The notes beneath the pieces were generated by a model that was given only the letters and a program-made list of their open reading frames with translations, was not told the origin of the DNA and made no database searches. A DNA stretch of 64,000 bases from assembly GCA_027943245.1 (NCBI GenBank), contig JANDJZ010000110.1:62001-126000 (forward strand), given 5' to 3'. Every line of letters begins with the position of its first letter. The first letter of the stretch is position 1. The DNA is from Acanthamoeba sp. SK_2022b (taxonomy: Eukaryota > Discosea > Longamoebia > Acanthamoebidae). This document shows positions 15,737 to 28,509 of this stretch, piece after piece. The translations under genes were made by a program, and so were the position numbers.

Positions 15737-15759
15737 TTGCTCTTCCCACTGCTAGAAAG
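15737..15759 (+). repeat. Left terminal inverted repeat of the transposon
   Basis: TTGCTC, four variable bases, then CACTGCTAGAAAG. The 13-base core is identical to the reverse complement of 25388-25400; the outer hexamer also matches. Similarity continues inward more loosely (ACTGCGGG-like runs). Confidence 0.85.
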
Positions 15760-15839
15760 AACTGCGGGTAAACTGCGGGATTGCGCGGTGGTTGGCGGGA
15801 AAATGGCGGGTTTGCAACACCCAAGCGGGAAAACCCACT

Positions 15840-16395
15840 CGCTACCCGCTTTGCCAAGCGTGTAGAGCGGCGCGCTGTGCGCAAGCGGGAAAAAGATACT
15901 TTTGCCTGCTCCACGCAGGCGCGTCGCGTGGGGCGGCCACACGCATGCGGGAAAAAGATACTTTTTGCCTGCTCCACGCAGGCGCGTAGCGTGCGGCGGC
16001 CACACGCATGCGGGAAAAGGCCGTTTCTACCCGCTTTGCCCAAGCGTGCAGAGTAGGGCAGCCACACGCATGCGGGAAAAGGCCATTTCTACCCGCTTTA
16101 CCCAAGCGTGTAGAGTGGCAGCCACACGCATGCGGGAAAAGGCCGTTTCTACCCGCTTTGGCCAAGCGTGCAGAGTAGGGCAGCCACACGCATGCGGGAA
16201 AAGACCGTTTCTACCCGCTTTGGCCAAGCGTGTAGAGTAGGGCAGCCACACGTATGCGGGAAAAGGCCGTTTCTACCCGCTTCGGCCAAGCGTGCAGAGT
16301 AGGGCAGCCACACGCATGCGGAAAAAAGATACTTTTGCTCCACGCAGGCGCGTAGAGTGGGGCTGCCGCACGCATGCGGGAAAGGCATTTACTAC
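15840..16395. repeat. Subterminal tandem array, about 61-bp unit, 8-9 copies
   Basis: The unit contains TACCCGCTT(T/C)GGCCAAGCG, TGCAGAGTAGGGCAGCC and ACACGCATGCGGGAAAAGG. The CGCATGCGG core recurs near 15943, 16006, 16068, 16128, 16189, 16252 (variant CGTATGCGG), 16313 and 16371. Two copies carry a different insert (AAGATACTTTTGCCTG...). Subterminal repeats of this kind bind transposase or an accessory protein in CACTA elements; binding here is inferred. Confidence 0.88.
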
Positions 16396-16511
16396 CCGCT
16401 CTGCGTCCAAGAAGCGTTTTTTGCACGTTACAAAGATAGAAGGATGTGTGGAGTCGGAGTCTTGTCCGCTCAGTTGCTGGCTGGCCGGCAGGCAGGCGAT
16501 GGGGGGAGGGC

Positions 16512-18731
16512 TCATGCTCGGCGCTCAGCTCCTGGTACCTCTCTTTGCTTCTGGAAAGGGAGGACATTGAGCATATCATCAGGCTCAATCATAAGAAGGA
16601 TCGTACGAACGGACTGGTCGGGCAGATCACGAGTGTCGGCACGGCGGCCCACTTTACTTGCTGAAGTTCTGGGAAGAGGGCTTTCTCCTGCGCCGGCAGG
16701 TCCACCCTTGCTTACGGCCACCGTGCTGAGCAGAGCCAAAAGGTCTTCCTGATCCTGCACGGACATCTAAGAACGAGCAGTCTGAAGAGAGAAAGAGGCA
16801 GACTTACCGTTGGAACGTAGGGCTCTGCTGGCTGAGAAGAAGACTCTGTTCTTGCTCTCTTATTTTGCTTCGCCGCTCGTTCGATGATCAGCGACGCTCC
16901 CTTCTCGGTCGGACGTGCTTGGCGTTGAGGTCGGTGTGGGCCTTTGGCAGGCGTGCCCACCTCAGACGCTCTCTCCCGCGAGGTGGCTGACCTTGAGGTC
17001 GGTTTGGATTGAGAGTTCTTATTCGATGGGAGCTCCAATTCGGTGCAGCTTTCGTCACTTGTCTGAGACTCACTCAATTTAGTTGTACGCTTGCGCTTCT
17101 TCATGTTCGACCGGCGGTCACTGACGTCCTTTTTCTGGCCCTTGATACGGCAGTCAGCTTGTCTATCATGGAGCTTCTCGTCATCGTCATCATTGCCGTT
17201 ACGCCTCTTGTCGTCGTCGTCGTCGTCATTGTCGTTACGCCTCTTGTCGTCGTCGTCATCGTCATTGTCGTTACGCCTCTTGTCGTCGTCGTCGTCGTCA
17301 TTGTCGTTACGCCTCTTGTCGTCGTAGCCGCGCCTCTTGTCCTTGTCGTCGTCGTCGTTGTAGTCATGCCTCTTGTCCTTGTTGTCGTCGTCGTCGTAGC
17401 CGCGCCTCTTGTCCTTGTCGTCGTCGTCGTCGTAGTCGCGCCTCTTGTCCTTGTTGTCGTCGTCGTCGTCGTCGTCGTCGCGCCTCTTGTCCTTGTCGTC
17501 GTCGTCGTCGTAGTCGCGCCTCTTGTCCTTGTCGTCGTCATCGTTGTCGTAGTCGCGCCTCTTGTCCTTGTTGTCGTAGTCGCGCCTCTTGTCCTTGTCG
17601 TCGTAGTTGTGCCTCTTGTCCTTGTCGTCGTCATCGTAGTCGCACCTCTTGTCCTTGTTGTCGTCGTCGTCATCGTAGTCGCGCCTCTTGTCCTTGTCGT
17701 CGTTGGTAAGGTCCCGTCAAGCCTAGTACTGACTATTAAAATGCTGTGTTTGCATTTTTATTTAAAAGAGGCGTACCAACTCCTCAGCCAAAGACGTTGA
17801 CGGTCTCGACGTTGAGGAAGAAGATGAGGACTTTGACATCTTCTTTCTCAGCCTCGCAAACTCGCTCTTGTTCTCTTTCGGGTCTAGACTCTAACGACGG
17901 ATACATACAGTTAATAATAGCGTCATAAGTATAATCACAGAAAGGAATGTACCTTGGATACAAGGGCAAACAGCCAACCTGCTTGTTCGCCCTTACAGTT
18001 CTCAAGAAGCTTCTTATCGAAGAAAGCAACACTCTGAGCCAAATGTACGCCCTTGGAGTCACGCGCGCTATCGAGGTAGGTTAACTCTCCGGCCTTCCGA
18101 AAGCTTGCCCGCAAGATAGACAAACGGGCGTCCTCTTCTGCACAACAGACGAAAGACTTAGCGTCGAAAGTAGTGGATGGGGAGGAATCTAACGTACCTT
18201 TAGTCAGGTGCTCCCTGAACTTATCGAATGCCTCGAACTTGTCGTAGGGTCGCTTCATTGGCTTGGTGAACTCATCGTAGGCATGAACGAGCTCCTTCTT
18301 AATGAAGTTGGTGACATTTCGCCGTCGTCCACGTACCTGCGACGAAGAGTTAAATACGCAACACGCTGCACCGAGAGACGACTACTTACCCAATTAGAGA
18401 GGTTCCGCTTGACGTGTTGTTCGACGTCGTCGTTCACCTTGGTGACCTTGTACTTGTCCATCATCTTCTTCTTGAAGTTCTCGTCGGCTACTACACCATC
18501 GCCGGTCTTGCTGAAGCCACCACATCGAAAGTAGAGAGCCTCTCTCTCGGCTTTGAGATCCTCATGGATCATCTCCACAGAGAGCGCCGAGTTCCGCTGT
18601 TCGAGACGTACAAGCACCTGGCTCTGCACACCAAGGATTCGAGCCGTCTCGTCACCCTGACGGACTAACCGGTCCAGCATCCTGCGGACGTAGACCTCGA
18701 ACTGTTCGTTCTTCTTCATCTTCGACGACAT
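16512..18731 (-). CDS. Transposon-encoded charged repeat protein, function unknown
   Basis: Exons that join in phase: 18731-18390, 18336-18198, 18137-17953, 17890-17777, then a long Asp-rich exon to about 16810 and a last exon 16766-16512. The first part is helical and basic (YVRRMLDRLVRQGDETARIL, DDVEQHVKRNLSNWVRGRRR). The middle carries more than ten imperfect DKDKRRDYDDDD repeats, encoded by a GTC-rich stretch on the plus strand. A Ser/Lys-rich nuclear-type region (MKKRKRTTKLSESQ) and a short helical end (DLLALLSTVAV) follow. How the 17777 exon joins the Asp-rich exon is unclear; a stop near 17763 could instead separate two genes. Being divergent to the transposase and inside the element, it may be an accessory DNA-binding protein (inference). 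Confidence 0.55.
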
Positions 18732-18894
18732 GTAGTGTTGTTGCTGGCGAGTAGAACAATGACCAAACCGCCGCAGTGACCAGACCATTCTACAATGCGC
18801 AGGCAAACACTTGCGCGACAAGTGAATAAAACAAATAAATTAGATAAAAATATAAATTTTATGTTTATCTTCAAGCAGGCGACAGCGTACCACG

Positions 18895-19190
18895 ACAGCA
18901 GCTCAACCTCGTCCTCGTGGACAAGCTCGTCTTCGTCAACAAGCTCATCCTACTGCCCGTCCTCGTCCTCGTGGACAAGCTCGTCTTCGTCTTCGTCTTT
19001 GTCTTCGTCTTCGTCTTCGTCTTCGTGGAAGTTTGTCACGCTTGTTTCCGGTCCTGTTATAATAACAATAATAATAATTCAACAAGTAATAAGTGAATAA
19101 AGTGTAACAAAATAAATAATTAGCGTGCTTACCTTACGGCGCACGAGCGGCAGCAGAATCGAAATGTCGCCCGATTGCCGGCGAGTGTTT
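18895..19190 (-). pseudogene. Probable 5' exons of the charged-protein gene, with an in-frame TAG
   Basis: A minus-strand segment (GDISILLPLVRRK, then GTAAGC donor near 19131) is followed after an acceptor near 19057 by an acidic frame with DEDELVHEDED runs. The frame is interrupted by TAG at 18952-18950 but continues with DELVDEDELVHEDEVELL. The acidic repeat resembles the one in the plus-strand transposase (21780-22000). Linkage to the main gene at 18731 is inferred. Confidence 0.35.
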
Positions 19191-19215
19191 GTTTTAATTA
19201 ATTAATTAAAACAAA

Positions 19216-19508
19216 GCGAGAGGGTCTCCCCGTACTTGGGAGGTGCTACCCCAACGGAGAGCACTCTAAAGAATGAAAAAAGGCCCCGCCCGATTTTTGT
19301 ACTCGGGTCCCTGGGACAAACCGGGATATAAGCTGGCGTGTCAGAAATGTTGTCGACGTTTTCAACGCTTCCGCAGAAATATTGACATGCCCGGATTTTT
19401 GCCTCTTCCGTGGCAGGCCGAGTACAAAAATCGGGCGGGGTCTTTTTTCATTCTTTAGAGTGCTCTCCGTTGGGGCAGCACCTCCCAAGTACGGGGAGAC
19501 CCTCTCGC
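19216..19508. repeat. Foldback (MITE-like) element with arms of about 90 bp
   Basis: Left arm 19216 to about 19306 (GCGAGAGGGTCTCCCCGTAC...) and right arm about 19418 to 19508 (...GTACGGGGAGACCCTCTCGC) are near-perfect reverse complements around a central stretch of about 110 bases. No ORF spans it. It lies between the divergent minus- and plus-strand genes of the transposon, so it is either a nested MITE or a built-in palindrome at the promoter. CAAA occurs just outside both arms but not at mirror positions. Confidence 0.85.
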
Positions 19509-19553
19509 CTCAAAGAGAAAATTATTATTTAATTTAATTTAAAATCACGTACA

Positions 19554-21464
19554 ATGTCGCGATCAAGGCAAGATTTACGGTATGTACATATAAATCCTCC
19601 CATTTTTTGTTAATCTAAGCCTTGAATGCGACGTATGGGCAGCCGTCAAGACCCTACAGCTTCGTGCCAAGGGCCAAGCGATCTGTTCGTTTCCCATCCT
19701 TTGTAATTGTTTGTATCTCGTTTTATAATCTCGTGATGTATATTTACAGATGCAGCGAGTTACAGCAGTACAACACGAGGAAGCAAAGGCGCCGTGGCTC
19801 AAAAGGCAACAACAAGAAGAGGCACGAGGTTTCAAAGTATGTCTTTCCTCTTCTCCCGTTCGACGATTTGTTCACATAGTGTTCTCCCTGCAGGGAGCAT
19901 GCCGAGCACGCTCTACAGCACTACCAACAAGGGAATAGGTGGAAGAGCATCTTCCACACGGTCAAGGACGTGCTACACGTTGAACTGGTACGCTCCACCT
20001 TTTGTCTTCTTTAATCTTGTTCCCTAACATCGTTGGCTCGCCAGGAGTGCAAGTACGAGGTTGTTGTTTTGCTGAGCCAGCTTTTGGACACACGCAACCA
20101 AGCAGTCATCGACCAAGACAACAACCGACTTCACGAGGTTATCCACGATATTGTCTACCTGTTCCCGCCCAAGGACGTTCACAAGACGGCCAGCCAAAGC
20201 GGCTTTCCTCCCAAGCCCGGCACGACCAGCATCCTGCAGCCGGCTGACGCAGCGACCTACTGCTCCGACTACTACGCAGGCGCCGAGTTCCATGAGTACT
20301 CACGCCAGCTGTATGTGCATCTCTACGTACGCTGGCGCTATCGAAACGCCACCAGGGCGTCAGACTTCGAAACGCATGTCTACGCTGACAACGAGAGAGA
20401 AGGTCTCGAGACGGTCTACAGGCGCCTATGGTGCGTGTTTATGGGCTTTAGTGGCTCATCGAGGGACAAAAAGGCACTCTTCGACCTTTTTATCCCGATC
20501 TTTCGTGTGACGTACGCCCTCCTGCTCTCTTTATTGCTTGAGTTTGCTTCCTCTAATCCCTTGCGACTGGGCAGGTGGCAAAAATGGATTGCCCACCGTG
20601 CCAAGCGACAGAAAGCAGAGCACAAAGCGTCCACAGTGACCGAGACGGTGGAGACAGCATCAATCATCCACACAGAGCAGGCTATTGTTTGTCCACTTGA
20701 CTCTCCGGCCTTCCCTTCTTCGCCGATGATTGACAATCAGGCGGCCAAGGAAGCTGAGCAGATCGAGCGGGCCGACCGCGCCTTGTTGGAGCAGGAGGAG
20801 CTGCTTTGTCATCAGCAGGTATAGTGCTCTCTTTGTTGCTTCTTTTCATTTTCATCTTGTTCATCACGATCGTACAGGAGGATGCTGAGCGCTTGGGAAG
20901 AGCGGTCGTGGTGATGCCTTCATCCTCTGAACGCCTCAAGCTTTGGGGCGTTATGGACCAGAGCGTCGATGCCTCGATGGGGCTCCCAAGGAGCTAATCA
21001 AATGGTTCTCACTCAAGCGTTTTTGTATGCGTGTTGCTGTCGACAAGAACGGCCAGATCCTGTTCGCCAGGTGCACCCTTCATTGGTGCTGGGAACGACT
21101 ACATGCGTGGGACGAGGTAGTATCCTACATGAGCTACATTTGCGTGTACGTGATCTCATCCTCACCCCCTTTAATCTATAGAGAATGCTAACAGTTGTAC
21201 TCTGGTGCAGACCCGACATCAGCCATCCCATGGAGATGGTCTGCCCCAAGTGCTGGATCAAGCTCGGCAATGCCCTGGCCTACCCTGGCGCAATCATCCC
21301 GCCCGGCTTTGAGAAAGGTCCACTCTCGAAGCTGCAGTGGATACTCTCAGGCCCAACCTGGGATGAGGCCACGGACACAGGTATGCCCTTTTCTCTTTCT
21401 ATCCAGTCCTCTTTGTTTATTTTTACGTGCAGGGACGTCGACGGAAGCAAAAGCTTGTAAATAG
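19554..21464 (+). pseudogene. Transposon gene A, zinc-ribbon protein, one-base frameshift
   Basis: Exons in phase: 19554-19579, 19750-19836, 19894-19987, 20045-20511, 20575-20818, 20878 to about 21151, then the exon starting at the acceptor near 21211, and a short last exon ending TAG at 21462-21464. The N-terminus is basic (RKQRRRGSKGNNKKR). The middle (QPADAATYCSDYYAGAEFHE, YVRWRYRNATRASDFE) is not recognised. The C-terminal part has CTLHWCWERLHAWDE and VCPKCWIKLGN, possible zinc ligands. The frame breaks at a four-G run at 20979-20982: one more base would join ASMG to APKELIKWF. It precedes the transposase on the same strand, so the two are likely partner genes. Confidence 0.6.
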
Positions 21465-21515
21465 TGCTTTGTTCCGTGTAAATACACTTCACTTTATTGG
21501 AGGGGGGGTGGAGCG

Positions 21516-24500
21516 ATGGAGGACCCTTTGGAGAACAGATACTGGTGCAACAACTGCCACCGGCACGTATCAAATATATGGTCTCATAACAAGACCAAAA
21601 CACATCAGCAACGTACGTTTCCTGCTCTTGTGTGATGTGGCCACGATCTAACAAGTCGACTTGACGACTTCAGATTCCACAAGGACGGCATCTTCGACGA
21701 GTTCAATCTCCACTTCTTTCAATCTCCACTTCTTTGCTGCCGAGTCCAGCCAGCCCCCCCACGAGTGAGGACTCGGACGATGGCGACGAGGACAAAGACG
21801 AGCTGGTCAACGACGGCGACGAGGACAAAGACGAGCTGGTCAACGACGGCGACGAGGACAATGGCAATGACAAGATGGACAAAGACAACAAAGACGAAGA
21901 CAAAGACAAAGACGAAGACGAAGACGAAGACGAAGACGAAGACGAAGACGATGAAGATGAAGACGAGATGGTGGACGATGAAGCTCAACCTGCCACTCAA
22001 GATGAGCTCGACAAGTACTTGATTATACCAAAGGTACGTCTATTATCTTGTTTATTTCACAAATACTAAGATTGGGTCAACAATGTAGGGCATAACGACA
22101 GCGCATAGTGTGACGACCCCCGAGATGTCCCTCTTGGTCAAGCTCTACCGTCTACAGAAGGAGTTTGTGATTTCCAACACCACGTTGGCTCCGTTCCTGT
22201 CTCTCCTACATGATCCTGAACTCGCGATCAAGGCAAAGCTGCCAAGGTCAGTTTACCTGCGTCAGAAAGCAGGAGCGGTATGTACTCCAACTTTGGTTAC
22301 ATGCTCATTTTCTAACCGTAGTTTTACCAGGAAATGTTCCCTCCATTGCCCTTCCGTGAGATGTCAGTGCCAGGCACGGAGGAGTCGCCAGAGGACAAGA
22401 AGATATTCTTCGTCTCACCAATCGACGTGCTTACAAGTCGATATGCACGTCTCACATGCACACAACTTGTGCAAGAGCAGTTCCACTTTCGTGAGGGCCC
22501 TATCGATCATCCATGCCGTTCCACAAGGTGGAAGCAGTGCGAAAGGTACGTTCACAGAGCACATTTCCCTCATGTGCTTACCTCTTTCACCACTCGTACA
22601 GGTGGTTTGGTCTGCGTGCAAGGAAGCACAATCGAAACCCCTCGAGCTGCTGACTACTGCTGCCGGTGTACTACATTGATGCCTTTGAGCAGAGCCGCTC
22701 AAGGAACAAGTCTGTCATGGGGATTTATATGAGCGTTGCCAACATGTCTCGCGCAGAGTACAAAAAGGCTGAGTCGAGAGTCTTACTCGCTCTAATCCCG
22801 AAGACAGTGAATCTCACCAACGCAATACGGCGGGTGATAATCGACCCGACGAGGCTTCTCGAGCGTGGCATTGATATCGAGTTCAAGGCAGAGGGCATCG
22901 TGCGACGGTGCTACGGCTCGGCCTATGCGATCTTGGGCGATCACCCATCCCAGATGGAAATGGCTGGTACGTTGTCCCCCTGTCCCTTTGCCCCTTGTTG
23001 GCTGATGCCATGCGTACAGGTTTGTCTGGAAGGAAGTGCGGCTGCAGGTACTGCCATAAGCTGGCAGATCTCAACTTTGTCAGCTCGTGGCCTACCGAGA
23101 TCAAGGGCCGAACTGTGCAAAAACCGTCACCACGAGGGAACTACAAGACCGTCTACGAGGCGCACACGAGGGCTCTTGAAGACAGTCGATCTGGTCGCCG
23201 AGGCGTGGTTGGACATGCAAACACAAGGATCAAGGCCTTTGGCTGGGCGCAGGAGGTGAGCCCGTTCTGGAAACTTCGGTGGATGCGGCCCTCGTTCTAC
23301 AGGTGTTTTGGCATTTGTCTGCTCCATCTTGTGTACTTGGGCACCGCCAAGGTACGGCTCTTCTCCTTCTGATGACTTTTGCAACTCACGTCAGTCACAT
23401 CTCATGAAGCGCCATTTATTATATACAGCCATCAAGAACAGGCTCTGGAACAAAATCAACGAGAGACTCAAGGAGCTGGTGGACTTTCCTGGCATCTCTT
23501 CTTTCGCCACAGAGTCCACGTTGTGCGACGGAACGAAGACGTACATGCCCACTTGTAGTTTTGTTTCATTTTACGACACACTAAGCGTAGAGTGCAGGGA
23601 CGGTTGGGGGTGGCAAGCCTCAAGGGCGGTGAGATGGACAGTCTCATGCAAGTCATCGAGGTCTTGTTGATCAACTTGGTCAACGATGACGAGCTCAGGG
23701 CCTGGCGTCTGCATGCTGACATCGCAATGCTACTACGATGCGACTCCCTCACCAACAACGACCTTGATCGGCTTGAAAGGCTCGTGGTAGAGTGGAAGAG
23801 CCTGTTTTTTTCACTTTACAACGGCGTTGTAGAGATACCCAAGCGGTCTGGGAAGAGGGAGCAAGGCCCTGGGAAGAAGAGGAAGAAGAAGAAGAAGAAG
23901 GCGAGACGGAGCAAGGCGAAGACGACGACGACGACAGAAAGTGACGCAACGCCACAGCCACTCAACCTCCTCAACCTGCCCAATTTCGAGACGATGGAGC
24001 ACCTGGCTGAGCAGATCCGTTTCCTGGGCCCAATGTGGTTCCAGGACACGATGCTCTATGAGCAACGGCATCTCCAGGCCAAGGAGAAGTGCCGTACGAT
24101 GAACCAGCAGGCCAACGAGCGAGATGTGCTTTTCAAGGTATGTAACTCTTGTTTGGAGCGCACCGTTTTGGTTTGTGTACCAACTCTGGCGCGTACAGAC
24201 GCACCTTCGCGACGCGGTGATGAGTGCAACGAGCTCCCTGGCCAAGACGCCGAGGCAGCGGAAATGCTATGGCTTTGCAGGCAAGTCCTACAGGCCGTCA
24301 CGACCTCCATCTTCGATTGCCAAGTGCAGGCTCAAGGCTGCGATCAGGCAGGAGCACGACATCGACATGGACTTTCGAACAAGCGACCTGTGCCTCTACA
24401 AAAGCGCGTGGCTGGCAGGGCGCAGGCTCGAACGAGGCCATTGGGTCGTCATTCGTGTTCCAAAGCGAACACCTCAGGTACGTTCACGTGCCGTTTCCAG

Positions 24501-25029
24501 TGTTGTTCTTTTCTAACGATGCGTGTAGGTGTTGTTCAGCTTCATGGACAACGACTGTGCCTTTGTCCGTGAGCGGGATCGTGTGGTGATAGGTAAGATT
24601 GAAGAGTTCCTCGAGGTGCAAATCATGCAGGGCATGGAGCCCGTGCGGTGGTTGCAGATGCAGCTCGGCTGTGCGATCGACGAACAAGACGACATGTACC
24701 CAACCTCCAACTTCAAGCGGTTCAAGATACACAGGCCGTACTTTGTCCCTTATGCGTGCAAGGATAGCCCCTGGCGAGTCCTGCGTCGCGTGCACTTCTG
24801 CAGCGATCCCCGTGTGGCGGGCGTATCGATCTTCAACCATCGTGCTTCGAGGCGCATCGAGAACGAGATCGACGAGCAGAGCGACGACGACGAGGACGAT
24901 GACGAGGACGACAACGAGGACGACGACGAGAGCGAGCAGAGCAATGAGGACAAAGACGAGGACGACAAGAGTGAGCAGAGCGACGAGGACGACGCGGCTA
25001 AAGAGACTGACGATAACTTCTCAGAGTAA
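21516..25029 (+). pseudogene. Transposase, tnp2/Plavaka (CACTA-type)-like, disrupted
   Basis: About a dozen exons. The N-terminus has a zinc finger (YWCNNCHRHVSNIWSHNK), then an Asp/Glu-rich region. The core follows the tnp2/Plavaka order: LLLPVYYIDAFE, NKSVMGIYMSVANM, LLALIPKT, a CGCRYCHK metal-binding block, SPFWKLRWM...LLHLVYLGTAK, LRAWRLHADIAMLLRCDSLT, and FETMEHLAEQIRFLGPMWFQ followed by an LYEQRH segment. A Lys-rich insert (GKKRKKKKKKARRSKAK) looks like a nuclear signal. The C-terminus (IHRPYFVP, RRVHFCSDPRVAG) ends in a long acidic tail. Disruptions are a 16-bp tandem duplication at 21704-21735 that shifts the frame, and an in-frame TGA at 22651. Without them the splice phases are continuous. 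The catalytic acids were not identified with confidence. Confidence 0.78.
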
Positions 25030-25036
25030 AACTTTC

Positions 25037-25265
25037 ACAAGTACAGGCGGGGCGGGGAGAAGGCGGGGAGAGGCGGGGGGGGAGAAGGCGGGGGAGAGGC
25101 GGGGCGGGTAGAAAGCGGGAAGAGAGGGGGCGGGGAGAGGCGGGAGAGGCGGGAGAAGGCGGGGAGAGGCAGGGGCAGGGAGAAGACGGGGAGAGGCGGG
25201 GCGGGTAGAAAGCGGGAAGAGGCGGGGCGGGTAGAAGGCGGGGAGAGGCGGGGCGGGTAGAAAGC
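25037..25265. repeat. Right subterminal purine-rich repeat
   Basis: Irregular tandem copies of GGCGGGGAGAGGCGGG and GGGTAGAAAGCGGGAAGAG follow the transposase stop codon. The composition differs from the left array, but just outside it (about 25305-25322) lies the CGCATGCGGGGAAAAGG motif shared with the left array, on the opposite strand as expected for inverted ends. Confidence 0.75.
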
Positions 25266-25387
25266 GTGCACATCACACCGAGTAGATGGCGTGTGGGGCG
25301 TGCACGCCTTTTCCCCGCATGCGACCATTTTGAAGCATTTTTCCGCTGCTGGGTGGGTGTGTATTTCCCGCTATTTCCTCGCCAATC

Positions 25388-25410
25388 CTTTCTAGCAGTG
25401 AATGGAGCAA
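25388..25410 (-). repeat. Right terminal inverted repeat of the transposon
   Basis: CTTTCTAGCAGTG, four variable bases, GAGCAA: reverse complement of the left end at 19 of 23 positions. CAAAC follows directly, as it precedes the left end. Confidence 0.85.
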
Positions 25411-25524
25411 CAAACAGTTTATTTTATTTTATTTTATCTTAATATTTTTAAAAAAAAGGTATTTTGTTAAAACAAATAAAAGAATAAGAATAAGAATTAG
25501 AATAAGAAACCACGTTTCCGTACC

Positions 25525-26172
25525 TCGTAGAAGTGAGCGTGACCATTGGATTTACTTGACCTCTTGCGCAAGCCTTGGTAACGCAAAGCGGTCAGCACTC
25601 GATGCACAGGCGCCGGAGGGGCGGGGAAGAGGGGAGTGGTTTACTTCTCGGCGTTGGGCATGCGCATGTGGGTGAGTGCGACAACCAGCCGGGCGCCCTG
25701 CACGCAGCTCGTTGGCCCGATCGCCGGCCCTCCAGCACAAAATCGAGGAACTCGACGGGGCAGGTTGACGATGGTCTGCAGCCAGTCCTCTTCCATCAGA
25801 CCCACCAGACCTAGAGGCCTCCCGCAACCCGCCTCACAGTGGTCCGGCCGACCCCGGCGCGAGGACGAGCGAGAGTGGGTGAGGGGCGATACCGATCTTG
25901 ACGCCGTTCCACTCGATAAGGCGGGTCTTGAGGCCGAAGGCCAGGGGCTGGTGGGTAGCCGACAGGTTGACGTTGCTCATGAGCCACGGAAACTTGCACT
26001 GATTGGAGTACTTGAGGAGCGTGTCCACTCCGAAATCAACGCTCTCCCGCCTATGCGTACCGGTATTTAATACGGCGACAAGGGCAAGATACTGCTGGTT
26101 GAGATAGACAACAAAGGTGTGTGCATCGTTGTCAGTTGCCAGTGAGGGAGGAGTCTTCTTTGCTTCACACAA
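25525..26172 (-). pseudogene. 5'-nucleotidase (UshA-type metallophosphoesterase) remnant
   Basis: Middle of a calcineurin-like 5'-nucleotidase. Recognisable pieces in order are VDFGVDTLLKYSNQCKFPW, SNVNLSATHQPLAFGLKT, WNGVKIGI, MEEDWLQTIVNLP, VVALTHMRMPNAEK (family ALTHMR motif) and, after a GTAAAC donor, NGHAHFYE where GGHDHFYE is expected. The N-terminal metal site and the C-terminal domain are absent, the NHE before FDFG is missing, and the second His-rich motif has Ala for Asp. With about 120 bases between it and the transposon end, the gene is truncated and probably dead. Confidence 0.65.
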
Positions 26173-26372
26173 GACGTTTGAATCCAGGCACTAGTGGCTG
26201 CTGAACCTCGATCACTTTACTTCTCCTGGCTGGGACAAAGTCACCTTAGCCGAACGCTTCGCTCCCCAGTGAAGCGGCGGCTGCTACAAACGGATAAAGG
26301 TGTGTTGCACAAAAAGGTGGAAAAGACTCAAAAATGGGGTAAAGAAGACGGAAGCCGTTTGGTGCGCGCTGC

Positions 26373-27289
26373 TCAGCGTTGTTGTTGAGCCTCAACTCTT
26401 TTCCGAGACTTGGCCCACGTGTAGACCAGCGCACCGCCCAACCCCACCATCGTGCTCACTGGAGACCGTTACCCACCCCAGCCACGCCCACCCCACAGTC
26501 AGCAGGCTCCAGCTGGAGTGTTGGGGGGCATGCTAAACCTTTGCCGATGAAGGTGAAGGGGGTCTTGAATATGAGCGAACCCACGATGGTCAAGGGAATC
26601 TTGTTGAACGAACCCACCTGCACGTCGTAATGACCACCGCCGCAGTCCCAACCTCGCGTGTGAGCATGGCACCCACTAGAGACGTAGAGGGAGAGAGAGC
26701 GAGAGAGCGGTTTGGGTGGGAGGCGGACCATGGACGTGGTGGTGGGCGAGGTGAGGCCCATCGCCCAGAAGGAGCACATGGAGATGCCGATCGAGCAAGA
26801 GCCATTGAGGAAGAGCAACACCCAGAACGACGGCATTGACCACGCTTCCCTGTGTGCGGTGTGCGGTGTGCGGTGTGCGGTGTGCGGTGTGCGGTGTGCG
26901 GTGTGCGGTGTGCGGTGTGCGGTGTGCGGTGTGCGGTGTGCGGTGTGCGGTGTGCGGTGTGCGGTGTGCGGTGTGCGGTGTGCGGTGTGCGGTGTGCGGT
27001 GTGCGGTGTGCTGTGTGCGGTGTGCGGTGTGCGGTGTGCGGTGTGCGGTGTGCGGTGTGCGGTGTGCGGTGTGCGGTGTGCGGTGTGCGGTGTGCGGTGT
27101 GCGGTGTGTGTGCAACCAGAGAGAATACAGCCGAAGCTGGGTCTGAGAAGATAACGCACGATGACAAGATGGTGTCGAGTTCCCTGAAGTAGAAGAAGCA
27201 GGGGATCAGGAGTGGGATGGCGATGATGTTGTTGTAGTACACCATATTCCACTTGCTCAGGTTCAGCGTTCGCATCAGCTTGTTCAGAT

Positions 27290-27363
<74 letters not shown>

Positions 27364-28509
27364 CGAGGATGGAGGTGAGCGAGATCGAGAGAGAGAGAGA
27401 GAGAGAAATGGCAATCATGTGTATGTGTGTACCGTGTAGGTGGTCTGGCAGGCGCAGTTGAGGAACATGTAGAAGTAGCCGTCAAGTCGGAACTCGAGGT
27501 CGTTGTAGCCCGCGACGATGCTTCCGAGGGCCTGCCGCCATACGATGATGGAGGAGCGCGTGAATCGATCGGGACTCAGCAGCGAAAAGGGCATGGCCCT
27601 GGCGAGAGGAGGCGCGTACCATGATACCGAGCGACCCGGCGATGGACGGAGAGATGGGGTTGTCGAAGAAGATGCGGTCGCCCAGCGTGATGGCAATGGT
27701 CGTGAAGTTCTTGAATACGGTCACCATCGCCACCGAGATGAGCCCCAGACTGGCCACGCCCAGCCCACCCACTCACAGTCAGCAATTCGCGACGCACGAG
27801 TTGTGCTCCGGGGAACAGAGATTTGAGAGGGGGGGACCTGAGCTGAGAGGTGACCAGCATGGCCACGAAGCACATGTTCAGCGGCGTCCAGGCATACTGT
27901 GCGCGCGCAAGTGGTTCGTTGAGTGAGACCACACACTCGCTCTCGCACACAATATCAGCATGCATGCAGGCACACGAGGCACGCACCACTTTCTTTGCCT
28001 CTAGCGGCTCCAGGCTAATGCTGCCCCATTGGCCGAGTAGCCACACAAACACCACCACGAAGGAATTCTACGTGCGCGCATGAAACGAGAGCGAGAGGTG
28101 AGAGAGGGTCAGATTGAGGCGGAAAGCTGAAAGAAAGAGGGGGGGGGAGGTGGATGCCTGGAACACGGTGAGGAAGAGGGGATAGTCGAAGCTGTAGAAG
28201 TTGATGATGGCCTTGTTGGAGAGGGTCGTCGCCATGGAGGTCAGACTGTAGGCCAGGCACGCCACGACCGGGAGGATCCATCGCGGCAAGTCTGCGCACG
28301 CCACCCGCATCGGCACCGCATCACCGCCGCATCACCAATCACACGTACGCATAGGTGAGAGCGGTGCTACTACACAGGGCATCGGGGAGACACCGATGGC
28401 GCGCCGCACCCTTTGATGAGGAGGAGCCCAGCGTGAGGCCGGGGGTCGCGGGAAGCGATTGCCGCCGGCCCGCGTCTGCACGCCAACCGCAACGGTCAGT
28501 CGAGAGGCG

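Follow-up and report, generated by a model that had tools for sequence, protein, structure and literature searches.

A probable Plavaka-related DNA transposon family with CACTG termini and subterminal motif arrays in an Acanthamoeba-like genome

In CACTA elements the subterminal regions carry inward-pointing repeats that are bound by a protein, and in maize Spm the TnpA protein pairs the two ends. Plavaka transposons are placed with EnSpm, Mirage, Chapaev, Transib, ESTA and Lanisha in the accessible part of Kojima 2025 (PMC12730594). According to the same text, PlavakaA elements have a 2-bp target duplication and TGT..ACA ends, PlavakaB elements have a duplication of 2 or 3 bp and CATCA..TGATG ends, fungal EnSpm elements have a 3-bp duplication and CAC..GTG ends, and an H(3-4)H motif is listed for the clade of Plavaka. 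CMC elements that combine CAC..GTG ends with 2-bp duplications are on record (PMC6004678, accessible part), and because of this the pair alone is not new. Here we describe an element found in a 64-kb window, by which we mean the whole stretch of 64,000 nucleotides that was analysed; it lies on contig C87 of a 45-Mb assembly of 1,129 contigs, which was the genome searched. The element carries a transposase gene and two partner genes, called here ORF1 and gene A. Our reading, to which we give a probability of about 0.88, is that the genome is Acanthamoeba-like and that the element belongs to a family of cut-and-paste DNA transposons within the CMCT group (EnSpm-Mirage-Chapaev-Transib-Plavaka), nearest to Plavaka.

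Copies were collected by searches with the left end, the right end and the transposase region, and the copy counts given below are lower bounds. The borders and terminal inverted repeats, in positions of the window, are:

15747..25400, forward strand: whole transposon as assembled, 9,654 bp, with borders common to other copies that have unrelated flanks
15747..15759, forward strand: left terminal inverted repeat CACTGCTAGAAAG, 13-bp core
25388..25400, reverse strand: right terminal inverted repeat CACTGCTAGAAAG, read inward, 13-bp core

The element starts with CACTGCTAGAAAG and ends with CTTTCTAGCAGTG, and the 13-bp core is perfect at both ends of the element. It was found that related copies elsewhere in the genome begin and end at these same bases beside unrelated host flanks. 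Left ends beginning with CACTG are present in C87 (the window), C275, C455, C562 and C752, with CACAG instead in C477, and right ends with the CACTG terminus in C87, C354, C455, C589, C580 and C1074; C275 keeps the right terminus but lacks a few bases immediately inward of CACTGCTA. The exact 13-mer occurs 12 times in 45 Mb, compared with ~1.3 occurrences expected at equal base counts, and 11 of these 12 are ends of related copies, including the two in the window. Because CACTG is where the other copies have their termini and the 13-mer marks copy ends, we define the element as 15747-25400. The original prediction had placed it at 15737..25410, with inverted ends that agree at 19 of 23 bases; the perfect core was seen correctly, but that count takes in 10 flanking bases, and the outer 10 bp on each side are not common to the other copies. 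A candidate outer inverted repeat, TTGCTC/GAGCAA, is absent from the other copies and was rejected as a chance match.

In the alignment of the copies, C275 and C455 are altered internally, C1074 lacks the left end and inner parts, contig ends cut C562, C752 and C354, and C580, C589, C211 and C477 match partially. The twelfth exact 13-mer belongs to a perfect 24-bp stub of the right end (C744:10916, L055), which is followed by unrelated sequence and may come from a deletion or an abortive event. The C455 copy holds a 4.5-kb insert (L031:1171-5639) with long frames that resemble, as judged by eye, a reverse transcriptase (YMDDI) and a tyrosine recombinase, and the terminal repeats of this insert recur internally; it is probably a DIRS-type retrotransposon nested in the element.

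Other copies with these ends and an empty site were sought, and both were found in the same genome. C455 is flanked by TG..TG and C275 by TT..TT, with a chance agreement of 1/16 for each. The empty site is located on contig C280, where the left flank of C562 matches at 96.1% over 904 bp and the right flank of the window element matches at 96.3% over 1,630 bp, and the two matches overlap at AA only. Since the first match ends at the same AA where the second one starts, the insertion duplicated AA, and the 2-bp target duplications are AA, TG and TT (one empty site and two copies with both ends). Of this AA insertion, C562 now holds the left side and the window contig, C87, the right side. Because the right flank of the window copy pairs with the C562 left flank in this empty site, we regard the window copy as chimeric, made either by an assembler that joined two near-identical copies or by recombination. 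CAAAC had been pointed out on both flanks, but its right-hand copy belongs to the host DNA and is found in the empty site as well, so it does not represent a target duplication. When single flanks were searched against the genome, the C455 left, C354 right and window left flanks matched themselves only, and the C752 left flank also matched C245 at 93%. To the right of the element (window 25401-27386) the identity to C280 (L041) is ~92-96% for at least 2 kb, and C280 may be an allele or a segmental duplicate there.

The gene that carries the classification is the transposase gene:

21516..25029, forward strand: transposase gene, 10 exons, 1,007 amino acids, intact in copy C354
22602..22966, forward strand: transposase exon 5, with presumed catalytic Asp 1 (D316) and Asp 2 (D403), C354 numbering
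23598..24137, forward strand: transposase exon 8, with presumed catalytic Glu (E723), C354 numbering

Exons were placed by GT-AG splice sites and by the frame in other copies, from sequence alone. The C354 gene has no internal stop in its 1,007 codons and GT-AG at all nine introns. The window gene is broken three times: exon 2 contains a duplication, exon 5 an in-frame stop and exon 7 a frameshift. In-frame stops number 5 in C562, 7 in C275 and 4 in the 716 codons compared in C455, which is without the 5' part. The four transposase motifs that had been named from the window are indeed present, in the order given for them. Searching Pfam exon by exon gave only a weak hint of Plavaka (E 0.11). 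The spliced C354 protein matches PF18759 (Plavaka) with E 3.3e-5 and 23.7 bits as a whole and with E 4.8e-6 and 26.5 bits over its 432-residue core, where the cut-off is 26.3. PF18759 is the only transposase family matched in Pfam, the two other whole-protein matches being far under their cut-offs, so the profile search of the spliced protein, which the original prediction had asked for, names a transposase family near the cut-off.

Relatives of this protein are few. From 5.8 billion proteins, 7,995 candidates were scored and a single homologue was obtained, P0001, a 1,070-amino-acid ENA protein (E 1.3e-30, 23% identity over 97% of the query region). Further searches from a two-sequence alignment and from P0001 returned nothing new, none of 60 pattern matches in viral contigs was a relative, and a sequence search of the PDB gave no credible relative (best E 0.42). 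A second transposase family is found in the same genome on C710 (L028, 416-2288), with 39-45% identity for four pieces out of five and 25% for the remaining one, and its motif order is the same as in C354. An Asp (VYYIDAFE in C354), an Asp (ILGDHP) and a Glu (GPMWFQDTMLYEQ) follow in this order in C354, the C710 family and P0001, and D316, D403 and E723 are the presumed catalytic triad. Between the second Asp and the Glu, C354 has a C(2)C motif (C420-x-x-C423), and CRYC is kept in C354 and C710 and absent from P0001. For H(3-4)H, the place of which was judged by the tnp2 pattern, one His (H703) was found before the Glu in C354 and C710 and not in P0001, and its partner His was not found.

Each end of the element contains a tandem array:

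15931..16383, forward strand: left subterminal tandem array, 62-bp unit, 7.4 copies, motif TTCTACCCGC starting at 16025, 16087, 16147, 16209 and 16271
25045..25266, reverse strand: right subterminal tandem array, 26-bp unit, 8.8 copies, motif TTCTACCCGC inverted at 25104, 25201, 25227 and 25253

The arrays differ in their unit, yet both hold the 10-bp motif TTCTACCCGC, with five exact copies on the left and four on the right, every one pointing inward. The motif is absent from the middle 8.5 kb of the element and from the rest of the window. When the two ends (700 and 420 bp, as chosen by the analyst) were dinucleotide-shuffled 300 times, no shuffle reached the observed shared-9-mer score of 20, and the highest score was 2. 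At the ends of other copies TTCTACCCGC points inward, with at most one mismatch, in 10 of 10 and outward in 0 of 10, and an exact copy is missing in 2 of the 10. The subterminal array that had been reported is the left one, and the right array, which was not mentioned, is also present.

The copies differ strongly in their CpG content, which was compared over the transposase region with the intact C354 as the reference. CpG sites changed by transition number 30/551 in the window, 86/550 in C562, 189/549 in C275, 158/398 in C455 and 83/204 in C1074, a loss of 5-41% versus 0.5-1.0% of changed sites among other G/C positions in the same copies. When sorted by the next base, the C455 changes are 158/398 at CG, 3/355 at CA, 2/299 at CC and 2/337 at CT. 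The loss is one-sided: between C275 and C354, 189 CpGs are lost in C275 and 3 in C354. The CpG observed/expected ratio is 1.06 in C354, 0.98 in the window copy, 0.81 in C562, 0.41 in C275, 0.29 in C455 and 0.20 in C1074, and in the window DNA beside the element it is 1.00 on the left and 0.91 on the right. As host controls, the C562 left flank and C280 show 7 versus 6 CpG losses, without direction and with the 7 lying within 23 bp (positions 685-707), and the window right flank shows 1 and 2. All 17 in-frame stops in the window, C562, C275 and C455 are TGA, and at 16 of these positions a CGN codon is present in C354, which would make methylation-driven decay the cause of the genes' death as well. 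The CpG loss in older copies is as would be expected if the host methylates and silences them. In the accessible part of PMC12344493, 5-methylcytosine (5mC) is described on young transposons in A. castellanii, where DNA transposons are not enriched overall and some inserts are highly methylated.

Based on these results the element is best classified as a new Plavaka-related variant in Amoebozoa and not as a canonical CACTA element. It fits neither canonical group because its termini fail for Plavaka while its duplication and its profile match fail for CACTA. PF18759 is its only transposase family in Pfam, with scores on either side of the cut-off, and with fungal Plavaka, as far as the accessible text of PMC12730594 describes it, it shares a 2-bp duplication (2 in PlavakaA, 2 or 3 in PlavakaB), the D-D-E residues and C(2)C between the second Asp and the Glu; unlike fungal Plavaka, it resides in an amoeba and has two extra genes, neither of which has a TET/JBP match in Pfam. 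The 'Plavaka giant repeats' of Amoebidium (PMC11244446, accessible part) likewise combine a Plavaka transposase with a protist host in which 5mC serves for silencing, but they form clusters of up to 50 kb in which many of the genes are tyrosine recombinases. KDZ elements (Zisupton, Kyakuja) have duplications of 8 or 7 bp, not 2, and no KDZ model is among the Pfam matches. In the literature searched on Plavaka and Acanthamoeba, in part only and with most subscription journals, preprints and Repbase outside the search, no such element is reported.

One alternative is a canonical EnSpm/CACTA element with a tnp2 transposase and a 3-bp duplication, in which ORF1 or gene A would be the TnpA. The amoeba element does share with that group CAC..GTG termini (here CACTG), more than one gene and inward subterminal motifs at both ends, as in CACTA elements, and the published records cited above, of fungal EnSpm with CAC..GTG ends and of CMC elements that join such ends to 2-bp duplications, also speak for it. 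Yet the duplication is 2 bp and not 3, and Pfam lists Plavaka and no tnp2 model at a threshold of E 10, with filters that drop most weak matches, which makes a canonical CACTA element unlikely. The CACTA/Plavaka membership given in the original prediction thus holds for a DNA transposon of Plavaka type and not for CACTA (tnp2), and the distinct lineage that it suggested is probably right. Duplicated or allelic host blocks do exist in this genome, as the near-identical C280 and C87 right flank show, and from these one could imagine that the element is an immobile repeat or a segmentally duplicated stretch of host genes rather than a transposon. That explanation is hardly credible: in copies whose flanks are unrelated the borders fall exactly at CACTG, which in our view refutes it already, the family has an empty site and a 2-bp target duplication, and its main gene is transposase-like. 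What the sequences directly show is that exact ends are common to copies at different sites, that there is an empty site and a 2-bp duplication, that one copy has an intact transposase with a conserved D-D-E, and that both ends carry inward-facing subterminal motifs. Another question is whether the window element is a single genuine 9.7-kb insertion that later lost its target duplication. It was assembled in one piece with both ends, but its right flank joins the C562 left flank without a gap in the empty site, and the left flank, which occurs at one place only in the genome, finds no counterpart within that stretch of C280; a single insertion is improbable on these grounds.

Several observations weigh against the reading as a mobile, Plavaka-related family or against parts of it. 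The window copy itself is without a target duplication (CC on the left, AA on the right), and if up to one mismatch is allowed the 13-mer is at chance level (35 matches versus 48 for the reversed control). The ends, CACTG..CAGTG, are neither the TGT..ACA nor the CATCA..TGATG of fungal Plavaka in the accessible text of PMC12730594. The PF18759 cut-off is barely passed by the core and failed by the whole protein, and a PF18759 scan of the whole genome gave no match, with controls equally silent and the gene split by introns. P0001, which is alike in the order of motifs and in Asp/Asp/Glu, has no C(2)C at that place and matches no Plavaka profile up to E 10. Codon counts between copies give no sign of recent selection on the transposase: relative to C354 there are 22 synonymous and 26 non-synonymous changes in the window, 30/59 in C562, 70/118 in C275 and 50/93 in C455. 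As a synonymous excess is not expected of decaying copies, these counts speak neither for nor against function in the ancestor. In addition, all gene models are predictions from DNA sequence, the functions given to the partner proteins are purely inferential, the host-flank controls for CpG loss are short, with a crude CpG/other ratio that is still 16-fold in the C562 flank (2.2-fold in the window flank), and C354 as the least-changed reference is an assumption.

The two partner genes and the palindrome between the divergent genes are:

16512..18731, reverse strand: gene A, 6 exons (18731-18390, 18336-18198, 18137-17953, 17890-17777, 17722-16808 and 16766-16512), 649 codons
19216..19508, no strand: palindrome with 91-bp arms, 98% complementary
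19554..21464, forward strand: ORF1, 9 exons, 495 codons in C354, with a CPKC zinc-ribbon-like C-terminus and a frame that is broken in the window

The divergent arrangement, as predicted, has gene A on the reverse strand and ORF1 and the transposase on the forward strand, with ORF1 upstream of the transposase. For gene A, the exon model combines GT-AG sites with what copies C562, C752, C275 and C211 show when compared. Its predicted protein has a charged DKRRDYD linker between two less repetitive parts, and in-frame stops number 1 in the window, 2 in C562 and 2 in C752. ORF1 is open in C354 and frameshifted in the window; an alternative without exon 2, the least certain exon, is also open in C354 (465 codons with the stop). 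Neither gene has a Pfam match at the cut-off. Partner genes had been predicted and they exist, although not as a separate zinc-ribbon gene and a separate DKRRDYD gene, which are both parts of longer spliced genes: the zinc ribbon is the C-terminal end of ORF1 and the DKRRDYD repeat is exon 5 of gene A. In the window copy each of the three genes is damaged, and among the copies examined none was seen to have all three intact, the C354 contig ending before gene A. The palindrome is full-length in four copies of this transposon family, with weaker partial matches in C1074, C589, C580 (two places) and C86. A separate nested miniature inverted-repeat transposable element is not supported for it, as the full-length matches are inside four family copies (with the second C580 place and C86 left aside).

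A possible mechanism can be drawn from these parts. D316, D403 and E723 would lie in an RNase-H-like fold of the transposase, which would cut at CACTG and join the ends across a 2-bp stagger, and one or both partner proteins would bind the TTCTACCCGC arrays and pair both ends. ORF1 or gene A is suggested as the binder because the layout equals that of the protein-binding subterminal repeats of CACTA elements. Since there is a CpG within TTCTACCCGC and the decay of old copies is almost confined to CpG sites, we propose that the family is probably silenced, and later eroded, by cytosine methylation in the host. The window copy is dead and chimeric and could move only with help from another copy.

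A wider and more tentative proposal, which we find possible but on balance doubtful, is that the family may form a separate CMCT lineage that bridges Plavaka (transposase and 2-bp duplication) and CACTA (ends and subterminal arrays) and that has two uncharacterised partners. At least one partner would read the CpG-containing end motif, with host methylation controlling mobility, and methylated copies would be destroyed by CpG-only hypermutation, comparable to fungal repeat-induced point mutation but with another sequence context. Taken together, the ends, the size of the duplication and the transposase of the family do not respect the division between Plavaka and EnSpm as published, and hence termini and transposase can be uncoupled in this superfamily. 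The graded copies, from intact to ~41% CpG loss, beside flanks without one-sided loss, make transposon-directed methylation and its mutational cost testable, and a methylome of Acanthamoeba has been published (PMC12344493, accessible part).

The amoeba origin that had been assumed for this DNA is borne out by profilin: three loci align with an Acanthamoeba profilin along its entire length, with identities of 94, 87 and 85%, and a fourth locus matches it in two pieces at 59 and 69%. The query has one difference from the PDB entry 'profilin I', which we take to be the Acanthamoeba protein. From these sequences the host is judged to be Acanthamoeba or close kin. A primer pattern for Acanthamoeba 18S had no match in the genome, which says little because the assembly may lack the rDNA. 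To the right of the element, the window contains a long tandem repeat (26840-27190), probably a minisatellite, in which several frames of either strand are open (CAVCGVRC / PHTAHRT).

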